Below, in pieces: positions 51,700-56,634 of a stretch of 64,000 nt of DNA (positions within the stretch are counted from its first letter, which is position 1; each line of letters starts with the position of its first letter). The notes under the pieces were generated by a model that saw only the letters and a program-made list of their open reading frames with translations, was not told the origin of the DNA and made no database searches. Made by a program: the position numbers and the translations under genes. This stretch comes from Microbispora catharanthi (GTDB taxonomy: Bacteria > Actinomycetota > Actinomycetes > Streptosporangiales > Streptosporangiaceae), in assembly GCF_006334915.2 (NCBI RefSeq), contig NZ_VDMA02000012.1, positions 1-64,000 on the forward strand, in the 5' to 3' direction.

Positions 51700-53709
51700 T
51701 CAGCCCTCCTTCTCGTGCCGCTGCAGCGCCGCGCGTACATCGGGGTCACCGGGGGCCAGGGACAGCGCCCGGCGCAGGTCGAGCAGCGCCTCCCGCCCCC
51801 GGCCGAGCGCGTCGAGCGCGGTCGCCCGGTTGAAGTACAGGGCCGCGTCCTCGCCCAGCTCGATCGCCCGGGTCAGGTCGTCGACGGCGCCCCGCGCGTC
51901 GCCGGTCTCGAACCGCAGGGTCGCGCGGTTCGCCCAGGCCGAGGCCAGGCGGGCGTCGGCGGCCAGCGCCGCGTCGAAGGCCAGGGCGGCCTCCGCGTAG
52001 CGGCCCGCCTCGGTCTCCAACTGCCCGAGCACGCCGTGCAGGTGCGCGTTGCCGGGGTCGAGGGCGAGCCCCGCCTCGACGTCGCGCCTGGCGGCCTCGT
52101 GCTCGCCGAGCATCTCCAGCACACCGGCCCGGTTGACGTACGCGTCGAGGTAGCCGGGGTCGAGGTCGAGCACATGGTCGAGGTCGGCCCGGGCGCCGTC
52201 CAGGTCCCCGGCGGCCAGGCGCAGCTCCGCCCGGTTGTAGTACGCCTCGGGCAGCGGCGGGCTCACCCGCATCGCCGTCTCGTAGTCGGCCAGCGCCTCG
52301 TCCGTACGTCCCATCTCGAACAGCAGGTTGCCCCGGTCGAGATAGTGGTCGGGGAAGCCCGGGTCGATCGCGACGGCGCGGTCGAAGTCGGCCAGCGCCT
52401 CCTCCCCGCGGCCCAGGCGCGCGAGGAGCTGCGCGCGGTTGGCGAACAGCACCATCCGGTGCACGGGGTGGGCGTCCGGTGGGAGATCACGCTCGGCCAG
52501 GTCGATGGCCGACCGCACCAGGCCGAGCGCCTCGTCGATACGCCCCTCCCGCAGCTCGATCAGCGCGCGGCCGTTCTGGTCGAATCCGAGTTTGAAGGCT
52601 CGCGTCCGCCGGTCAGGCAGCAGCGTGGAGATCGCTATCGCCTCGTTGATCCAGGCTCTGGCCCTGGTCAGGTCGCGCCGCGCCGGATCGCGGTCGCGCG
52701 CGTCGAGCATCGCCGTGCCGTACGCGGCGGCGGCGTGCACGGCCGGATCGACGCTGACCCTCCGGGCCTGGTCGTACAGCTCCTGCGCGTGCGCCCGCCG
52801 GCCCAGCCCCGCCAGGGCGGTCGCGGTGCGGTGGGTGAAGCGCCACCACAGGTCGGAACCCGGCTCCACCAGTCGCAGGCCGCGCGAGCCCAGCTCCACG
52901 ACCGCGTGCAGGAAACCCTCGGTGACGCAGTGGTCCACCGCCGCCCACAGGGCCTGCGCCGCCGCGTCCATATCGCCGCCGTGCTCCAGGTGGTACGGCA
53001 CCGCGCCCAGCGCGTGCTCCGAGGCCGCGGCGTCGGCCCGCAGTTCGGCGACACGCCGGTCGTGCCGGCGCGCCCGTTCCTCCGGCGGCAGCGACAGGTA
53101 CGCCCGGTAGGCCCGGGGGTCGTCGGAGGTGCAGTCCGAGACGACGTAGTCGTCGGGCGGGCCGCCCTGGACCCGGGCCTCCATCAGCCGCGTGCCCTCC
53201 CATTGGGGCTCCGCGGAGGCCAGGACCAGCGTCAGATCCGGCACCCGGCGCGCCAGGACGCGCAGCAGTTCGCGGTCGGCCGGATCCGCCTCGTGCAGGT
53301 TGTCCACCAGCAGCGTCCGCGGCTCTTCGAGGCAGTCGCGGACGAACTCGGCGATCCCGTTGGCGATCCGCAGCGTGCGGCGCGGCGCGGGCACGAGGAT
53401 CCGCTCGTCCTCCGTCAGACGCGCCTCGATGGTCTGCCGCCGCGCGGGCACCAGAGGGCGCAGGCTGGGAGCGACGGCGCGGATCTCGATGTCGTGTTCC
53501 GCCACCAGGCCCGGGGAACGCTCCAAGGCGACCGGGACGAGGGCGCGCAGGATCGCGCCACCGATCGTGTACGGACCGCGTAGCCGGCGGTGCCCGTTGA
53601 CGACGGGCGCCATGGGAGGCGGCACCTCCAGAGCAAGCGCGCGGAGGGCCGCCACGCGGTCCCGGGAGAGGTCTCCCCGGACCCAGATGTGGCTCGGGTG
53701 GTCCCTCAC
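51700..53709 (-). CDS. TPR protein with degenerate ATPase-like N-terminus
   Basis: 669 residues. Residues 1-190 resemble an AAA/NACHT-type domain: RTLLVDNLHEADPADRELLRVLA is a Walker-B-like strand, but I see no Walker A GxxxxGKT. Residues 230-400 are helical repeats and residues about 400-660 are seven or eight classic TPRs (AEAYYNRAELRLAAGDLDGA, ADYETAMRVSPPLPEAYY style). The architecture suits a peptide- or protein-binding scaffold or regulator. The GTG start overlaps the stop of the 25-residue peptide gene as GTGA, so translation is coupled. I know no characterised relative. Confidence 0.8.
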   Translation of the reverse strand: MRDHPSHIWVRGDLSRDRVAALRALALEVPPPMAPVVNGHRRLRGPYTIGGAILRALVPVALERSPGLVAEHDIEIRAVAPSLRPLVPARRQTIEARLTEDERILVPAPRRTLRIANGIAEFVRDCLEEPRTLLVDNLHEADPADRELLRVLARRVPDLTLVLASAEPQWEGTRLMEARVQGGPPDDYVVSDCTSDDPRAYRAYLSLPPEERARRHDRRVAELRADAAASEHALGAVPYHLEHGGDMDAAAQALWAAVDHCVTEGFLHAVVELGSRGLRLVEPGSDLWWRFTHRTATALAGLGRRAHAQELYDQARRVSVDPAVHAAAAYGTAMLDARDRDPARRDLTRARAWINEAIAISTLLPDRRTRAFKLGFDQNGRALIELREGRIDEALGLVRSAIDLAERDLPPDAHPVHRMVLFANRAQLLARLGRGEEALADFDRAVAIDPGFPDHYLDRGNLLFEMGRTDEALADYETAMRVSPPLPEAYYNRAELRLAAGDLDGARADLDHVLDLDPGYLDAYVNRAGVLEMLGEHEAARRDVEAGLALDPGNAHLHGVLGQLETEAGRYAEAALAFDAALAADARLASAWANRATLRFETGDARGAVDDLTRAIELGEDAALYFNRATALDALGRGREALLDLRRALSLAPGDPDVRAALQRHEKEG

Positions 53710-53783
53710 CCCTTGTGGATGACGCTCGAGGTACCGCTGAGCTTGGTCGTTCCCGGCTTACGGATAATGATCTTCTTCATCAT
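53706..53783 (-). CDS. Candidate micropeptide gene (25 aa) coupled to the TPR gene
   Basis: A short frame with two starting ATGs (53783 and 53780) preceded by GGGGAAAGAGG, encoding a basic peptide with KKIIIRKPGTTKLSG and a Ser/Thr-rich tail ending in HKG. Its TGA (53708-53706) overlaps the GTG start of the TPR gene. It has no cysteine and no membrane segment. The hydrophobic-basic head and short hydroxy-residue tail resemble the form of small RiPP precursors or signalling peptides, but I cannot name a family. The position, ribosome binding site and overlap argue that it is translated; without conservation data this is not proven. Confidence 0.6.
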   Translation of the reverse strand: MMKKIIIRKPGTTKLSGTSSVIHKG

Positions 53784-53860
53784 GCCTCTTTCCCCACTCT
53801 TGCGGACAAGGCACAAGTATTCGCAGGGATCAGCTATCCGCCAAGGGATGGAAGCATTAT

Positions 53861-54427
53861 CTATCGGGAGAAAAGCGGAGAGACTACGGCATTCAGCTGC
53901 TTCTCGATATAAATCACCACGTTGTCACCGCGTACCTCGCGCCGCAGCTCCCGCCACCCGGATTTGCGATAGAGCTCAAGCGCGGCGACCTGACGCAGGG
54001 TGGTGTCACCGCGCAACGTCCTGTAGCCGAGCCGGCGCGCCCGATCCTCGAGCTCCTCCGTGATCTGGGCGCCGTAGCCGCGCCGCTGGTGATCGGGGTG
54101 GACCCGGAGCCGGCACATCTCCGCCGTGTCGGCGTCGATGCGCCGCAGGCCGCCCATCGCGACGAGCCCCGCCCCGGACACCTCGCCCACCAGGAAGTCA
54201 CCCCCGGCGGCCAGGTAGACCTCGGTGATCCGGGGGAAGTCGTCGTCGTAGTAGACGCCGTCACCCGGCACCACGCCCACCTGGGCCAGGCCGATCTGAT
54301 GGAGGGACCACACCGCGTCGAGGTCGGACCAGCGGTATCGCCGGATCCTCAGCGGCGCGGCCCCGCTCTCCCCGCCTCTCACGGGATCTCCCGGATCGAG
54401 ATCTCCCGCCAGCGCGTCTCCTGCCAC
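53861..54427 (-). CDS. GNAT-family N-acetyltransferase
   Basis: 188 residues. The core begins LRIRRYRWSDLDAVWSLHQ, contains MCRLRVHPDHQRRGYGAQI as the acetyl-CoA loop and ALELYRKSGWRELRR at the end; the motif pattern is that of a single-domain GNAT. The substrate is unknown; it could modify the micropeptide or a metabolite of the cluster, which is speculation. The start is GTG at 54427, 22 bp after the XRE-TPR stop, so the genes are likely co-transcribed. Confidence 0.85.
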   Translation of the reverse strand: MAGDALAGDLDPGDPVRGGESGAAPLRIRRYRWSDLDAVWSLHQIGLAQVGVVPGDGVYYDDDFPRITEVYLAAGGDFLVGEVSGAGLVAMGGLRRIDADTAEMCRLRVHPDHQRRGYGAQITEELEDRARRLGYRTLRGDTTLRQVAALELYRKSGWRELRREVRGDNVVIYIEKQLNAVVSPLFSR

Positions 54428-54448
54428 ACGTCCTCCTCGGTACCCACG

Positions 54449-56038
54449 TCACCCGGCGTCCCGGAGCAGCTCCGGCGGGACCGTGACCCGGCTCTGCTTG
54501 ATCACCTCGCAGAAGGCCTGAAGCCGGGGCGAGTCGCCGTGCTTGGCCTTGACCTCCTTCGCCAGGTCGTACGCCGGTTTGAGCAGCAGGTCGGTCCGGT
54601 AGTCCTTGTCGACCAACTCGATGGCCTCCTGGCCCAGCTTGAGCGCTGCCTCGACGTCGCCGTCGATGAGCCGGCACATCGCCCGGTCGAACCGGATCAG
54701 GGTCTGGTCGAGCAGGTCCTCGTCCGTGTACTTCTCGAGCGCCTGCTGCAGGATCACGTCGGCCTCCACCGTCTGCCCCAGCTTCACCAGGACGTCGCCC
54801 TGGTAGAAGTAGAGCTGCCGCTCGGTGTAGCCGAACGCCGGGTCCTCCCGGTCGCTGTCGTTCATCTGCTGGAAGGCCGCCCTGGCGCGATGCAGGGCCC
54901 GCTTGGCCTGCTCGACCACCTCGTGCCGCGAGCCGTTGACACCGGCGATCTTCGCCAGCGCCCTCGCCTCGACGACGGGCGCCATGGTCCGCGCGGCACA
55001 GGGGGTGTGGCCGGCCAGGTCGCGGCTCTTCTTCGCCAGCGTGAGCGCCTCGCGCGGGTCGCCGTAGTAGAGCGGGACCAGCGCCTCGCGGGCGGTGACC
55101 CAGGCGCGCAGGGCCCGGTCGCCGGTCTCGTCCGCCGCCATCCGGCCCGTGCGGAAGAACGAGCGGGCCATCCGCTGGTCCCCGAGGTCGATCATGATCA
55201 TCCCCGAGAGCCCGGCGAGCTGGGCCGCCATCCGGCACAGCCGCTCCTGCACGTCGATGGGCTGCCGGCGGTCCAGGGCCTTGCGTACAGCGGTGAACTC
55301 CAGCATGACGTCGCAGAGCAGCCGTACGGGCGGGGTGTTCATGTACTGCCGCCCGAAGCCGAACGTGGCCTGCTCCCACTGGTCGAGCATCGCCGGCGAG
55401 ACGGTGGCCGTGACCATCGTCTCGTCCATCCGCCGGCGGAGGTTCTCCACCGCGCCGAGCACCTCTTCGTTGAGCTCCTTGAGCCCAACCGCCCCGACGG
55501 TGCCGCCGGCGAGGAGCCTCAACAGCGTCCTCCGTAGCACGTTCTCGTCCTCCTCGCCCCCGTCCACCGGATGGGTGCAGCCGCCCGACGGGGGCGGCGC
55601 ACCCCACGGAGCGGGTGAAGTGATAGGTCTGTCCTGTTCTGGGTCACCGCCACCTGATTCGGCCAAGTGTCCGTGGCCGCAGATACACGGGCTTTCGAAC
55701 CCGAGGGCCAGGGGCTCCACCCGGTAGACCGAGCACAGGTAGTGGAGATACTCCGGGCCGGGCCGCTTCATGCCCGACTCGTACGCGGACAGTAGCGTCT
55801 CGCCGATGCCGGGGATGGCTTTTCCGTCCCTCTCGAAGAGCGCGCGCACCTGCTCGATCACGTCGGCGAGCGCCACACCGTGCGAGAGGCGATGCGCCTT
55901 GATCCGAGTCGTGCCGAACTGTGGTCCGCAGTCGTTGTGGATCTCCTGGGCGATCTCGGCCAGGCTGCGCCCGGCGGCCAGGCCCCGCGCCCGGATCCGG
56001 CGCGCGATTTCCGTCTCCCTGTGTTGCCTGCCGGACAT
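54449..56038 (-). CDS. XRE-type regulator with TPR sensor domain
   Basis: 529 residues. The first 140 residues form an unusual helix-turn-helix region with SLAEIAQEIHNDCGPQFGTTRIKAHRL and a second DNA-binding-like part (GETLLSAYESGMKRPGPEYLHYLCSVYRV). A CICGHGH metal-like motif and linker follow, and residues 190-520 are helical TPR-type repeats (ARSFFRTGRMAADETGDRAL, YFYQGDVLVKLGQTVEADVI). Such regulators often sense peptides or proteins. The ATG at 56038 has GAGAGGGG upstream. It is divergent from the 86-residue protein gene and heads the cluster with the GNAT, micropeptide and TPR genes. Confidence 0.88.
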   Translation of the reverse strand: MSGRQHRETEIARRIRARGLAAGRSLAEIAQEIHNDCGPQFGTTRIKAHRLSHGVALADVIEQVRALFERDGKAIPGIGETLLSAYESGMKRPGPEYLHYLCSVYRVEPLALGFESPCICGHGHLAESGGGDPEQDRPITSPAPWGAPPPSGGCTHPVDGGEEDENVLRRTLLRLLAGGTVGAVGLKELNEEVLGAVENLRRRMDETMVTATVSPAMLDQWEQATFGFGRQYMNTPPVRLLCDVMLEFTAVRKALDRRQPIDVQERLCRMAAQLAGLSGMIMIDLGDQRMARSFFRTGRMAADETGDRALRAWVTAREALVPLYYGDPREALTLAKKSRDLAGHTPCAARTMAPVVEARALAKIAGVNGSRHEVVEQAKRALHRARAAFQQMNDSDREDPAFGYTERQLYFYQGDVLVKLGQTVEADVILQQALEKYTDEDLLDQTLIRFDRAMCRLIDGDVEAALKLGQEAIELVDKDYRTDLLLKPAYDLAKEVKAKHGDSPRLQAFCEVIKQSRVTVPPELLRDAG

Positions 56039-56373
56039 TCCGGCCCCTCTCTCGTGGCCGGCCGCACTCGCAGCCCGTGGTCTCGAGCGGTCCTCACCTC
56101 GTGACGGAGAGTGACTTACTCGTCGCGCTCCGACCACACCATAATGATGGACCATAGTTGGCGCGGCCAAGCCCCCAACATGAACGTGCCGACTAAGGAT
56201 CGTCTCCCGATAGGGGTTTTCTTTCAACCGACATGGGTTTTCCTCCACCGCGGCCGCTTCCCGCCCTCGTTGACCCGAGCACTTCCGTGAGCCATCTTGG
56301 GCGCACCAGAGTGAACAGACGGGAACGCAAAGTACACATTCCGCCCGCGAACGGAAATGAAGGAGGACCTACG

Positions 56374-56634
56374 GTGGGGGAGGACGATTTCCGGCGCCTG
56401 GAACATTTGGTGGCCGAACTCGACGCGCGGGGTCTACTCGCGCGAGTCGTGCGCACCCCGTCGGGCCGCGCCTACGTACGCGTGATCAACCCCGACGCGA
56501 CGAGCCTCACGGAGAACGTGGTCTGCCAGGCGGCCGACTACTGGTGGTCCTGGGGTGAGCGGATGCACCGGGCGGACGACCCCGCCGGAGCGGCCACGAA
56601 GGTGGCCCGCGTGCTTGCCGCGGTGAGCGAGTAG
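56374..56634 (+). CDS. Small conserved-looking protein (86 aa) divergent from the XRE-TPR gene
   Basis: Soluble, mixed-charge protein: DFRRLEHLVAELDARGLLARVV, then GRAYVRVINPDATSLTENVV and the aromatic ADYWWSWGERMH. I recognise the general type as small actinobacterial proteins that sit next to XRE regulators, but have no function for it. The start is GTG at 56374 with AAGGAGGA 6 nt upstream; the frame extends upstream without support. The intergenic region (56039-56373) is AT-richer and contains the ACCATAAT...ACCATAG imperfect repeats near 56137-56160 and probable promoters for both directions. Confidence 0.75.
   Translation: MGEDDFRRLEHLVAELDARGLLARVVRTPSGRAYVRVINPDATSLTENVVCQAADYWWSWGERMHRADDPAGAATKVARVLAAVSE

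Follow-up and report, generated by a model that had tools for sequence, protein, structure and literature searches.

The window analysed here is a stretch of 64,000 nucleotides (nt) of the Microbispora catharanthi genome (contig NZ_VDMA02000012.1, positions 1 to 64,000), and the subject of this analysis is a micropeptide gene on its minus strand together with the adjoining gene for a tetratricopeptide repeat (TPR) protein. The micropeptide gene, consisting of 24 codons followed by TGA (MKKIIIRKPGTTKLSGTSSVIHKG), is located at 53706..53780 (minus). Reading of the sequence places a purine-rich ribosome-binding site (GGGGAAAGAGG) at 53785..53795 (minus) and a GTGA overlap at 53706..53709 (minus), where the TGA of the peptide gene crosses the GTG start of the TPR gene. 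The short frame, the ribosome-binding site and the overlap are present as the original prediction, an earlier note made from the letters of the window alone, had described them. That prediction gave the gene 25 codons (53783-53706, minus; MMKKIIIRKPGTTKLSGTSSVIHKG) by starting at an extra in-frame ATG at 53783, one codon upstream. Since the second Met is the sole start conserved in the homologues, the gene probably begins at the second ATG (53780); the predicted frame holds and its length is corrected to 24 codons. The peptide is basic and rich in Lys, and many of the homologous peptides are also preceded by purine-rich runs. The TPR partner protein, 669 residues in length, is encoded at 51700..53709 (minus).

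On the evidence of sequence conservation, the micropeptide gene is a real protein-coding gene under purifying selection. Matches to the peptide (E <= 10, best E 4.9e-11) are present in 153 of 297 sampled genomes of the host family, although those near E 1 may be due to chance, and the conserved micropeptide occurs in a group of soil actinomycetes. For peptides in the gene arrangement of the window (type A, described below), the ratio of nonsynonymous to synonymous polymorphism (pN/pS) is 0.24 in the called frame versus 1.37 and 1.77 in the two other frames. This figure comes from 20 unique sequences representing 24 of 27 loci, L070, L075 and L077 being left out because the search pattern missed their peptide. 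The type B peptides give 0.37 (36 sequences; in-frame figure only). The order of XRE-family regulator, GNAT acetyltransferase, peptide and TPR gene is kept in all 27 loci (L063-L089), with PurU as the next gene; a 28th locus (L090), whose TPR protein is that of a Chloroflexi metagenome-assembled genome at 36% identity, was left out of the synteny count. A chance frame is ruled out by the matches in family genomes, the synteny in 27 of 27 loci and the in-frame pN/pS. The window peptide has no match in Pfam or NCBIfam, and the sole type C peptide scanned has none in NCBIfam.

Searching with the TPR protein gave matches in 140 of the 297 family genomes at E <= 1e-30, a threshold far from that used for the peptide, and the coupling counts rest on 150 listed TPR matches and 150 listed peptide matches. 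For 120 of the 150 listed TPR matches, a listed peptide precedes the match in the same orientation at a distance of -1 to 800 nt. Inspection of the remaining 30 reveals a family peptide upstream in 26, some of them diverged and those of type C with one gene in between, so that 146 of the 150 listed TPR homologues have an upstream peptide. A similar short frame with conserved amino acids (type A pN/pS 0.24) is present at the same spot in homologues of the TPR protein, and both coupling and selection support the proposal of the original prediction that the adjoining TPR protein is the partner of the peptide. For 52 of the 120 listed pairs, peptide and TPR match are -1 to 23 nt apart; in most others the distance is near 500 nt, largely because the match begins late in the TPR protein. 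Among the 30 listed peptides without a listed TPR match, 13 have a TPR gene directly downstream and 10 are orphans, which are discussed below; the rest are G106, G245 and G294, which were not read, a decayed copy in G070, a copy at a contig edge in G069, and those of G051 and G248. Decayed copies are seen at the syntenic site: both peptide and TPR gene are broken in L107 (G070), and in L266 (G101) the peptide sequence has diverged, with no TPR gene seen over the ~0.9 kb that follow.

The pairing extends beyond the host family. Of 394 genomes sampled across the class, 18 have the N-terminal domain of the TPR protein, and the three non-family genomes that carry it (G305, G386 and G524) are also those with the three best non-family peptide scores. 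Peptide, a gene with an HExxH motif and TPR gene stand in a row in each of the three. Other weak non-family peptide matches were treated as chance because only these three genomes had a non-family match to the TPR N-terminal domain; only some of those loci were viewed, and the filter also missed true peptides.

By gene order, the peptide is coupled to one TPR family in three ARRANGEMENTS: types A, B and C. Type A is the XRE-GNAT-peptide-TPR order of the window. Type B consists of peptide and TPR gene without XRE or GNAT, its peptide ends in ASPKHVG or a similar tail, and its position varies from overlapping to ~260 nt before the TPR match. Type C, which was read in 15 genomes, consists of a peptide gene (e.g. 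MKKIKIRKAGPVRLTAAACSIYKNPN), a membrane protein with HExxH and the TPR gene. Neither XRE nor GNAT gave a match in the loci of types B and C that were examined. All three types are carried by one genome, G119 (A at L033, B at L092 and C at L168). The C-termini of type A and B peptides are conserved and not diversified, and the type C peptides have a common N-terminal block followed by tails with Cys, Tyr or Trp (for example in G305, G386, G524 and G153). Among the 132 called genes of 35 type B loci, the commonest neighbour besides the TPR gene occurs in 13 loci and the next in 10. Named by eye, these are FtsY-like (13 of 35, e.g. L091, L096 and L211) and agmatine-deiminase-like (10 of 35; L094, L181, L185) genes, and we take them for shared chromosomal context.

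In type C, a divergent SARP-like gene is located beside the locus in 11 of 15 cases and a relative of flavin mononucleotide (FMN) oxidoreductases follows in 7 of 15, some of the loci being cut short. Seven loci (L168-L170, L176, L178, L196 and L197) resemble a biosynthetic cluster, with a relative of old-yellow-enzyme-type flavin oxidoreductases after the triad and a SARP-like regulator facing it. Type C was also found in other families and on the Streptomyces plasmid NZ_CP109482.1 (L276), where the related peptide motif forms the C-terminal part of an annotated hypothetical protein of 57 residues. The plasmid triad sits among IS4, IS5 and IS701 transposases, and this setting suggests that the type C triad has moved horizontally.

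The HExxH residues of the type C membrane protein (H195, E196 and H199) are invariant in nine aligned partners and are located in a hydrophobic stretch. The motif is present in 9 of 9 aligned proteins and in 15 of 15 type C loci, the 15 having been found by searching for that motif, and the membrane segments were assigned by reading only. An M50-like label comes from a weak match to PF02163 (E 0.066) in one of four proteins scanned, and a PqqD-like label, indicating a recognition element (RRE) of ribosomally synthesized and post-translationally modified peptides (RiPPs), comes from a similarly weak match to NF033530 (E 0.067) in one of nine members. A profile search of the PDB with the type C partner gave no credible relative and no PqqD chain. 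Type C looks like a peptide-maturation operon, and the peptide-TPR pair appears to be a pared-down relative of such a three-gene peptide-processing system. Two proteins distantly related to the HExxH protein of type C are encoded in the window's own genome (G000), at C13:97524-98660 (L239) and C65:136997-138133 (L240), each grouped with a ThiF-family-like and a DUF6879-like gene; domains were scanned in L239 only, where ThiF was confirmed by Pfam. Both look like further peptide-maturation loci. In another genome (G003, L244:5715-6953), a small open reading frame (ORF), MKIEIKRVENTRLTQLIHPDS from its last start, is present in the 150 nt before a distant HExxH membrane protein and may represent a further family of precursor peptides.

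A tree of 22 TPR proteins was rooted on a type C protein (C_G305), the root being put in type C because this is the arrangement found outside the family. Types A and B group together and are separated from type C with a support of 1.0. Inside this group B_G115 splits first, the other type B proteins form one clade (1.0) and the type A proteins another (0.71). Given the type C root, the simplest history would be one loss of the HExxH gene from a probably ancestral type C; another root would allow a gain.

Ten genomes from two genera have kept XRE, GNAT and peptide with the TPR gene gone (L100, L101 and L202-L209). The peptide and the PurU match are just ~220 nt apart in L206 and L207. The orphan peptide is intact in nine of the ten, L205 being without a stop codon, and the pN/pS of the nine (L205 left out) is 0.30 in frame versus 0.98 and 1.17 in the other frames. 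Of the coupled type A copies read, 37 of 39 carry Arg at residue 7 of the peptide; of the uncoupled copies, 10 of 11, which are the ten orphans, carry His (Fisher p 1.2e-8, kinship uncorrected). For this table 53 genomes were entered and three (G178, G077 and G039) were dropped because the pattern missed their peptide; it is separate from the other type A genomes of the peptide search, loci L063-L089 and the decayed G070 copy. In a midpoint-rooted tree of XRE plus GNAT, coupled and uncoupled copies intermingle within genus g6, and the pair G058 and G095 shows the same split in g59, which points to at least two independent coupling transitions. A second TPR gene is present elsewhere in all ten orphan genomes and was read as type B in six of them (L094, L098, L181, L182, L188 and L192). 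Type B peptides have His at residue 7 in all that were read except for one Tyr (L213). From this pattern we infer that residue 7 helps to choose the TPR partner. On the TPR side, positions 95, 100, 101, 310 and 336 are acidic in type A and hardly so in type B, while 267 and 486 are fixed differently; as candidate specificity positions these are a lead only, being drawn from seven A and seven B sequences over ~669 uncorrected columns with G009 left out.

The TPR partner matches Pfam TPR models, and its AlphaFold model has a mean predicted local distance difference test score (pLDDT) of 89.4 and a predicted TM-score of 0.84. The superhelix comprises residues 247-669 (51703..52971, minus). Its best Foldseek match is the TPR domain of O-GlcNAc transferase (E 4e-13). 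In VIA-align, 2pl2_A ranks first (Z 23.7, root mean square deviation (rmsd) 2.4, 183 residues aligned) and 1w3b_A is among the tied top matches (Z 22.8, rmsd 6.8, 385 aligned); here and for the N-terminal domain, only the chains ranked highest by Foldseek were compared, so that absence of a family among the fold matches is no evidence. Asn ladders in TPR proteins bind the peptide backbone. Five such residues of the window protein (Asn 379, 424, 492, 526 and 627) show no variation across all 22 aligned TPR proteins of types A, B and C. These proteins are 566-825 residues long with starts picked by script, and L105/G057, L110/G027 and L184/G153 were left out of an initial 25 because the ORF finder returned none.

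The N-terminal domain of the TPR partner (residues 1-245; 52975..53709, minus) is best called degenerate AAA+/STAND-like. The Pfam family AAA_16 matched in 18 of 18 TPR-family members (best E 3.4e-6). The window protein itself scores 23.3 bits, below the cut-off of 32.6, over profile positions 91-161 of 167, in the half after the P-loop. Modelled alone, the domain reaches a pLDDT of 84.7 and gives weak fold matches to RFC, RuvB and MalT, with Foldseek E-values of 0.042 at best; the highest VIA-align scores belong to AAA+ proteins, with Z 9.7 for RFC (rmsd 3.0, 104 aligned) and Z 8.1 for MalT 8bob_C (rmsd 4.4, 201 aligned). A Walker A motif (GxxxxGK[ST]) was not seen in the domain by inspection, the region reading NGHRRLRGPYT, and no DNA-binding domain was found in the TPR protein with Pfam or NCBIfam.

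Upstream of the peptide on the same strand are the two genes foreseen by the original prediction, a GNAT acetyltransferase at 53861..54427 (minus; PF00583, 51.6 bits against a cut-off of 20.7) and an NsdA-family XRE/TPR regulator at 54449..56038 (minus; NCBIfam NF053720, 150.2 bits against a cut-off of 75). For the XRE gene, 56038 is one possible start; its longest ORF begins at 56248. Of 120 family genomes sampled, 74 have a match to the XRE regulator at E <= 1e-60. Four of 30 XRE loci (L261, L263, L267 and L269) contain XRE and GNAT without peptide or TPR in the ~1 kb read downstream, and in L263 and L267 PurU falls within that distance. These four loci indicate that XRE and GNAT are separable neighbours. 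Together with the lack of XRE or GNAT matches in types B and C, they weaken the cluster reading of the original prediction; the window cluster is partly neighbourhood, and XRE and GNAT are not proven members of the system.

We favour, with about even confidence, a reading in which the product of the micropeptide gene is a dedicated ligand or partner of the adjoining TPR protein and the pair is related to a peptide-processing operon. In this reading the basic segment MKKII(R/H)KPGTxxL would lie extended in the Asn-laddered TPR groove, and its binding would set the state of the degenerate AAA+/STAND-like head, which is without a P-loop, as the inducer sets MalT. The probably ancestral type C also encoded the HExxH membrane protein, which may recognise and cut the precursor, and types A and B, without the HExxH gene, would have kept a fixed peptide and its receptor. 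The choice of TPR paralogue may depend on residue 7, and the His7 orphans may act in trans with the second TPR protein. A tentative and rather doubtful extension is a peptide-receptor family of Actinomycetota independent of the RRNPP group (Rap, Rgg, NprR, PlcR and PrgX), in which a RiPP-like operon of precursor, HExxH membrane protein and STAND-like TPR protein would have lost its processing gene, turned into a two-gene unit of ligand and receptor, and later divided into paralogous channels within a single genome (G119 having types A, B and C); residue 7 would be the specificity switch, and orphans would have been recaptured by a paralogous receptor once their own was lost.

Several observations weigh against a dedicated peptide and receptor. 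Four of the 150 listed TPR matches are without an adjacent peptide (G051, G248, G069 and G094); two of them lie at or near contig ends (G069 near an end, G094:C504 at one), and in G051 and G248 the adjacent peptide appears truly absent, that of G248 being 2.6 kb away on the opposite strand. Residue 7 has exceptions in both directions, namely His with a TPR gene in G221, Cys with a TPR gene in G009, and Arg without one in G101, where the peptide looks decayed and the otherwise conserved His22 is gone; moreover, G069 was scored as coupled though its peptide and TPR gene are on different contigs. Part of the constraint on the orphan peptides may be older than the TPR losses. For the HExxH protein, the labels PqqD-like and M50-like come from reading and from weak matches, and an ancestral type C depends on the chosen root and on the wider occurrence of type C. 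Asn ladders are a frequent feature of TPR proteins. Acidity is seen in all 22 of the aligned proteins (net -9 to -39), but the window protein, with -3.3 net charges per 100 residues, is within the range of the 27 called window genes of at least 300 residues, six of which are more acidic. Because this acidity is ordinary, a charge match with the basic peptide counts little, and an acidic groove was set aside as evidence.

A possible but clearly weaker alternative is that the peptide is a RiPP-type precursor or scaffold, with its N-terminal 15 residues as leader, a C-terminus that is modified or released, and the TPR protein as carrier or assembly platform. In its favour, the Cys, Tyr and Trp tails of type C stand behind a common N-terminal block and the type C operons hold an HExxH protein along with the flavin oxidoreductase (7 of 15) and the divergent SARP-like gene (11 of 15). 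In PMC10885120, M50 proteases are described as maturing epipeptides and pearlins. Type A adds a GNAT next to the peptide, but this GNAT is separable, the C-termini in types A and B are conserved rather than diversified, and the evidence for an RRE in the type C protein is weak. In the 35 type B loci, furthermore, only the TPR gene recurs in more than 13, though the flanks are short. The near-obligate coupling could also be explained if the peptide stayed with the TPR protein as a small permanent subunit, or served its assembly, and had no part in signalling, and the stop/start overlap in many type A loci would suit balanced synthesis of two subunits. We consider this unlikely, as the peptide persists without its own TPR gene in ten genomes and the spacing in types B and C is loose.

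Synteny in 27 of 27 loci, retention of XRE-GNAT-peptide after TPR loss and a peptide rich in Lys could be read as one regulatory cluster in which GNAT acetylates the peptide and XRE is the output. This is improbable given the XRE-GNAT pairs without peptide or TPR (4 of 30 loci), the broad occurrence of XRE (74 of 120 family genomes) and the absence of XRE and GNAT matches from the type B and C loci. The least probable explanation is a leader ORF merely coupling or timing TPR translation, as the GTGA overlap of the window might suggest. Conservation is at the level of amino acids and not of nucleotides, the peptide is also conserved where no TPR gene follows, and a gene of ~1.2 kb separates peptide and TPR gene in type C. 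A translational-coupling leader as the principal explanation is largely refuted by the type C spacing, the pN/pS values and the conserved orphans.

A dedicated peptide and receptor invite comparison with the RRNPP systems, which are defined in PMC10075063 by a propeptide of 10-100 residues, a TPR receptor of 250-500 residues, adjacency of the two genes, and secretion via Sec or PptAB. As in RRNPP, a short peptide gene (24 residues) adjoins the gene of a TPR protein that is the presumed binder; this adjacency is found in the window and in most of the 146 pairs among the 150 listed, type C having one gene in between. In contrast to RRNPP, the window partner has 669 residues, no DNA-binding domain was found in it and a degenerate AAA+-like domain is present instead, and the peptide family is shared with the type C HExxH operon. 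A Sec-type secretion signal was not seen by inspection, the longest nonpolar run in the window peptide being three residues. The pair is not placed in RRNPP because receptor length and, by inspection, secretion do not fit, though three of the traits do. The comparison of the original prediction with Rap, Rgg and PlcR fails for the same reasons: the TPR protein is longer, no secretion signal was seen by inspection and no DNA-binding domain was found. Its broader guess of a peptide-signalling or modified-peptide system suits type C, with HExxH between peptide and TPR gene, signalling itself being a putative role.

The closest published logic that we found is that of the FxSxx-COOH systems of actinobacteria (PMC7159879), which combine a peptide, a zincin metallopeptidase and an AP-ATPase with TPRs. 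Type C follows a similar logic of peptide, HExxH protein and STAND-TPR protein. It differs from those systems by a conserved peptide N-terminus and no FxSxx tail, an HExxH protein in the membrane and an ATPase-like domain without a P-loop; a C-terminal FxSxx is present in none of the type A, B and C peptides read. The maturation of epipeptides and pearlins by M50 proteases (PMC10885120) resembles type C only, in that a membrane HExxH protein is encoded next to a small peptide gene, whereas the window locus is without such a protein. 

In MalT the superhelix senses the ligand. The window protein resembles MalT and other STAND regulators in having an AAA+ domain followed by a TPR-like superhelix, in line with the 8bob_C fold match, and differs in having no Walker A, no DNA-binding domain that was found, and an encoded peptide as its presumed ligand. 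It shares a long superhelix and the Asn ladder with the O-GlcNAc transferase TPR domain; unlike that enzyme, no glycosyltransferase domain was found in it. A defence system was also considered and rejected: PADLOC gave only TPR-region matches (PrimPol and two others) for two TPR proteins and none for the other two proteins.

According to PMC10075063, signals in Actinomycetota are typically small molecules, and for that reason a conserved peptide/TPR pair could open a new type of circuit in the main antibiotic-producing bacteria. No description of the peptide, the peptide-TPR pair or the type C triad was found among the titles and abstracts listed in searches of open-access literature. The peptide is below ordinary gene-length cut-offs, and such genes are easily missed by gene finders. 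The natural orphan and residue-7 variants are ready-made tests of specificity, and the type C loci, unnamed by the family models scanned, are candidate biosynthetic or signalling clusters.

Around the window cluster, a search for sigma-70 promoters between 53600 and 56400 found none, which means little in actinomycetes. A terminator-like site is present at 56356-56339, upstream of the XRE gene. An ORF of 86 residues (56374-56634, plus), which runs divergently from the XRE gene and for which Pfam and NCBIfam gave no match, recurs in all 27 related loci with 71-100% identity.

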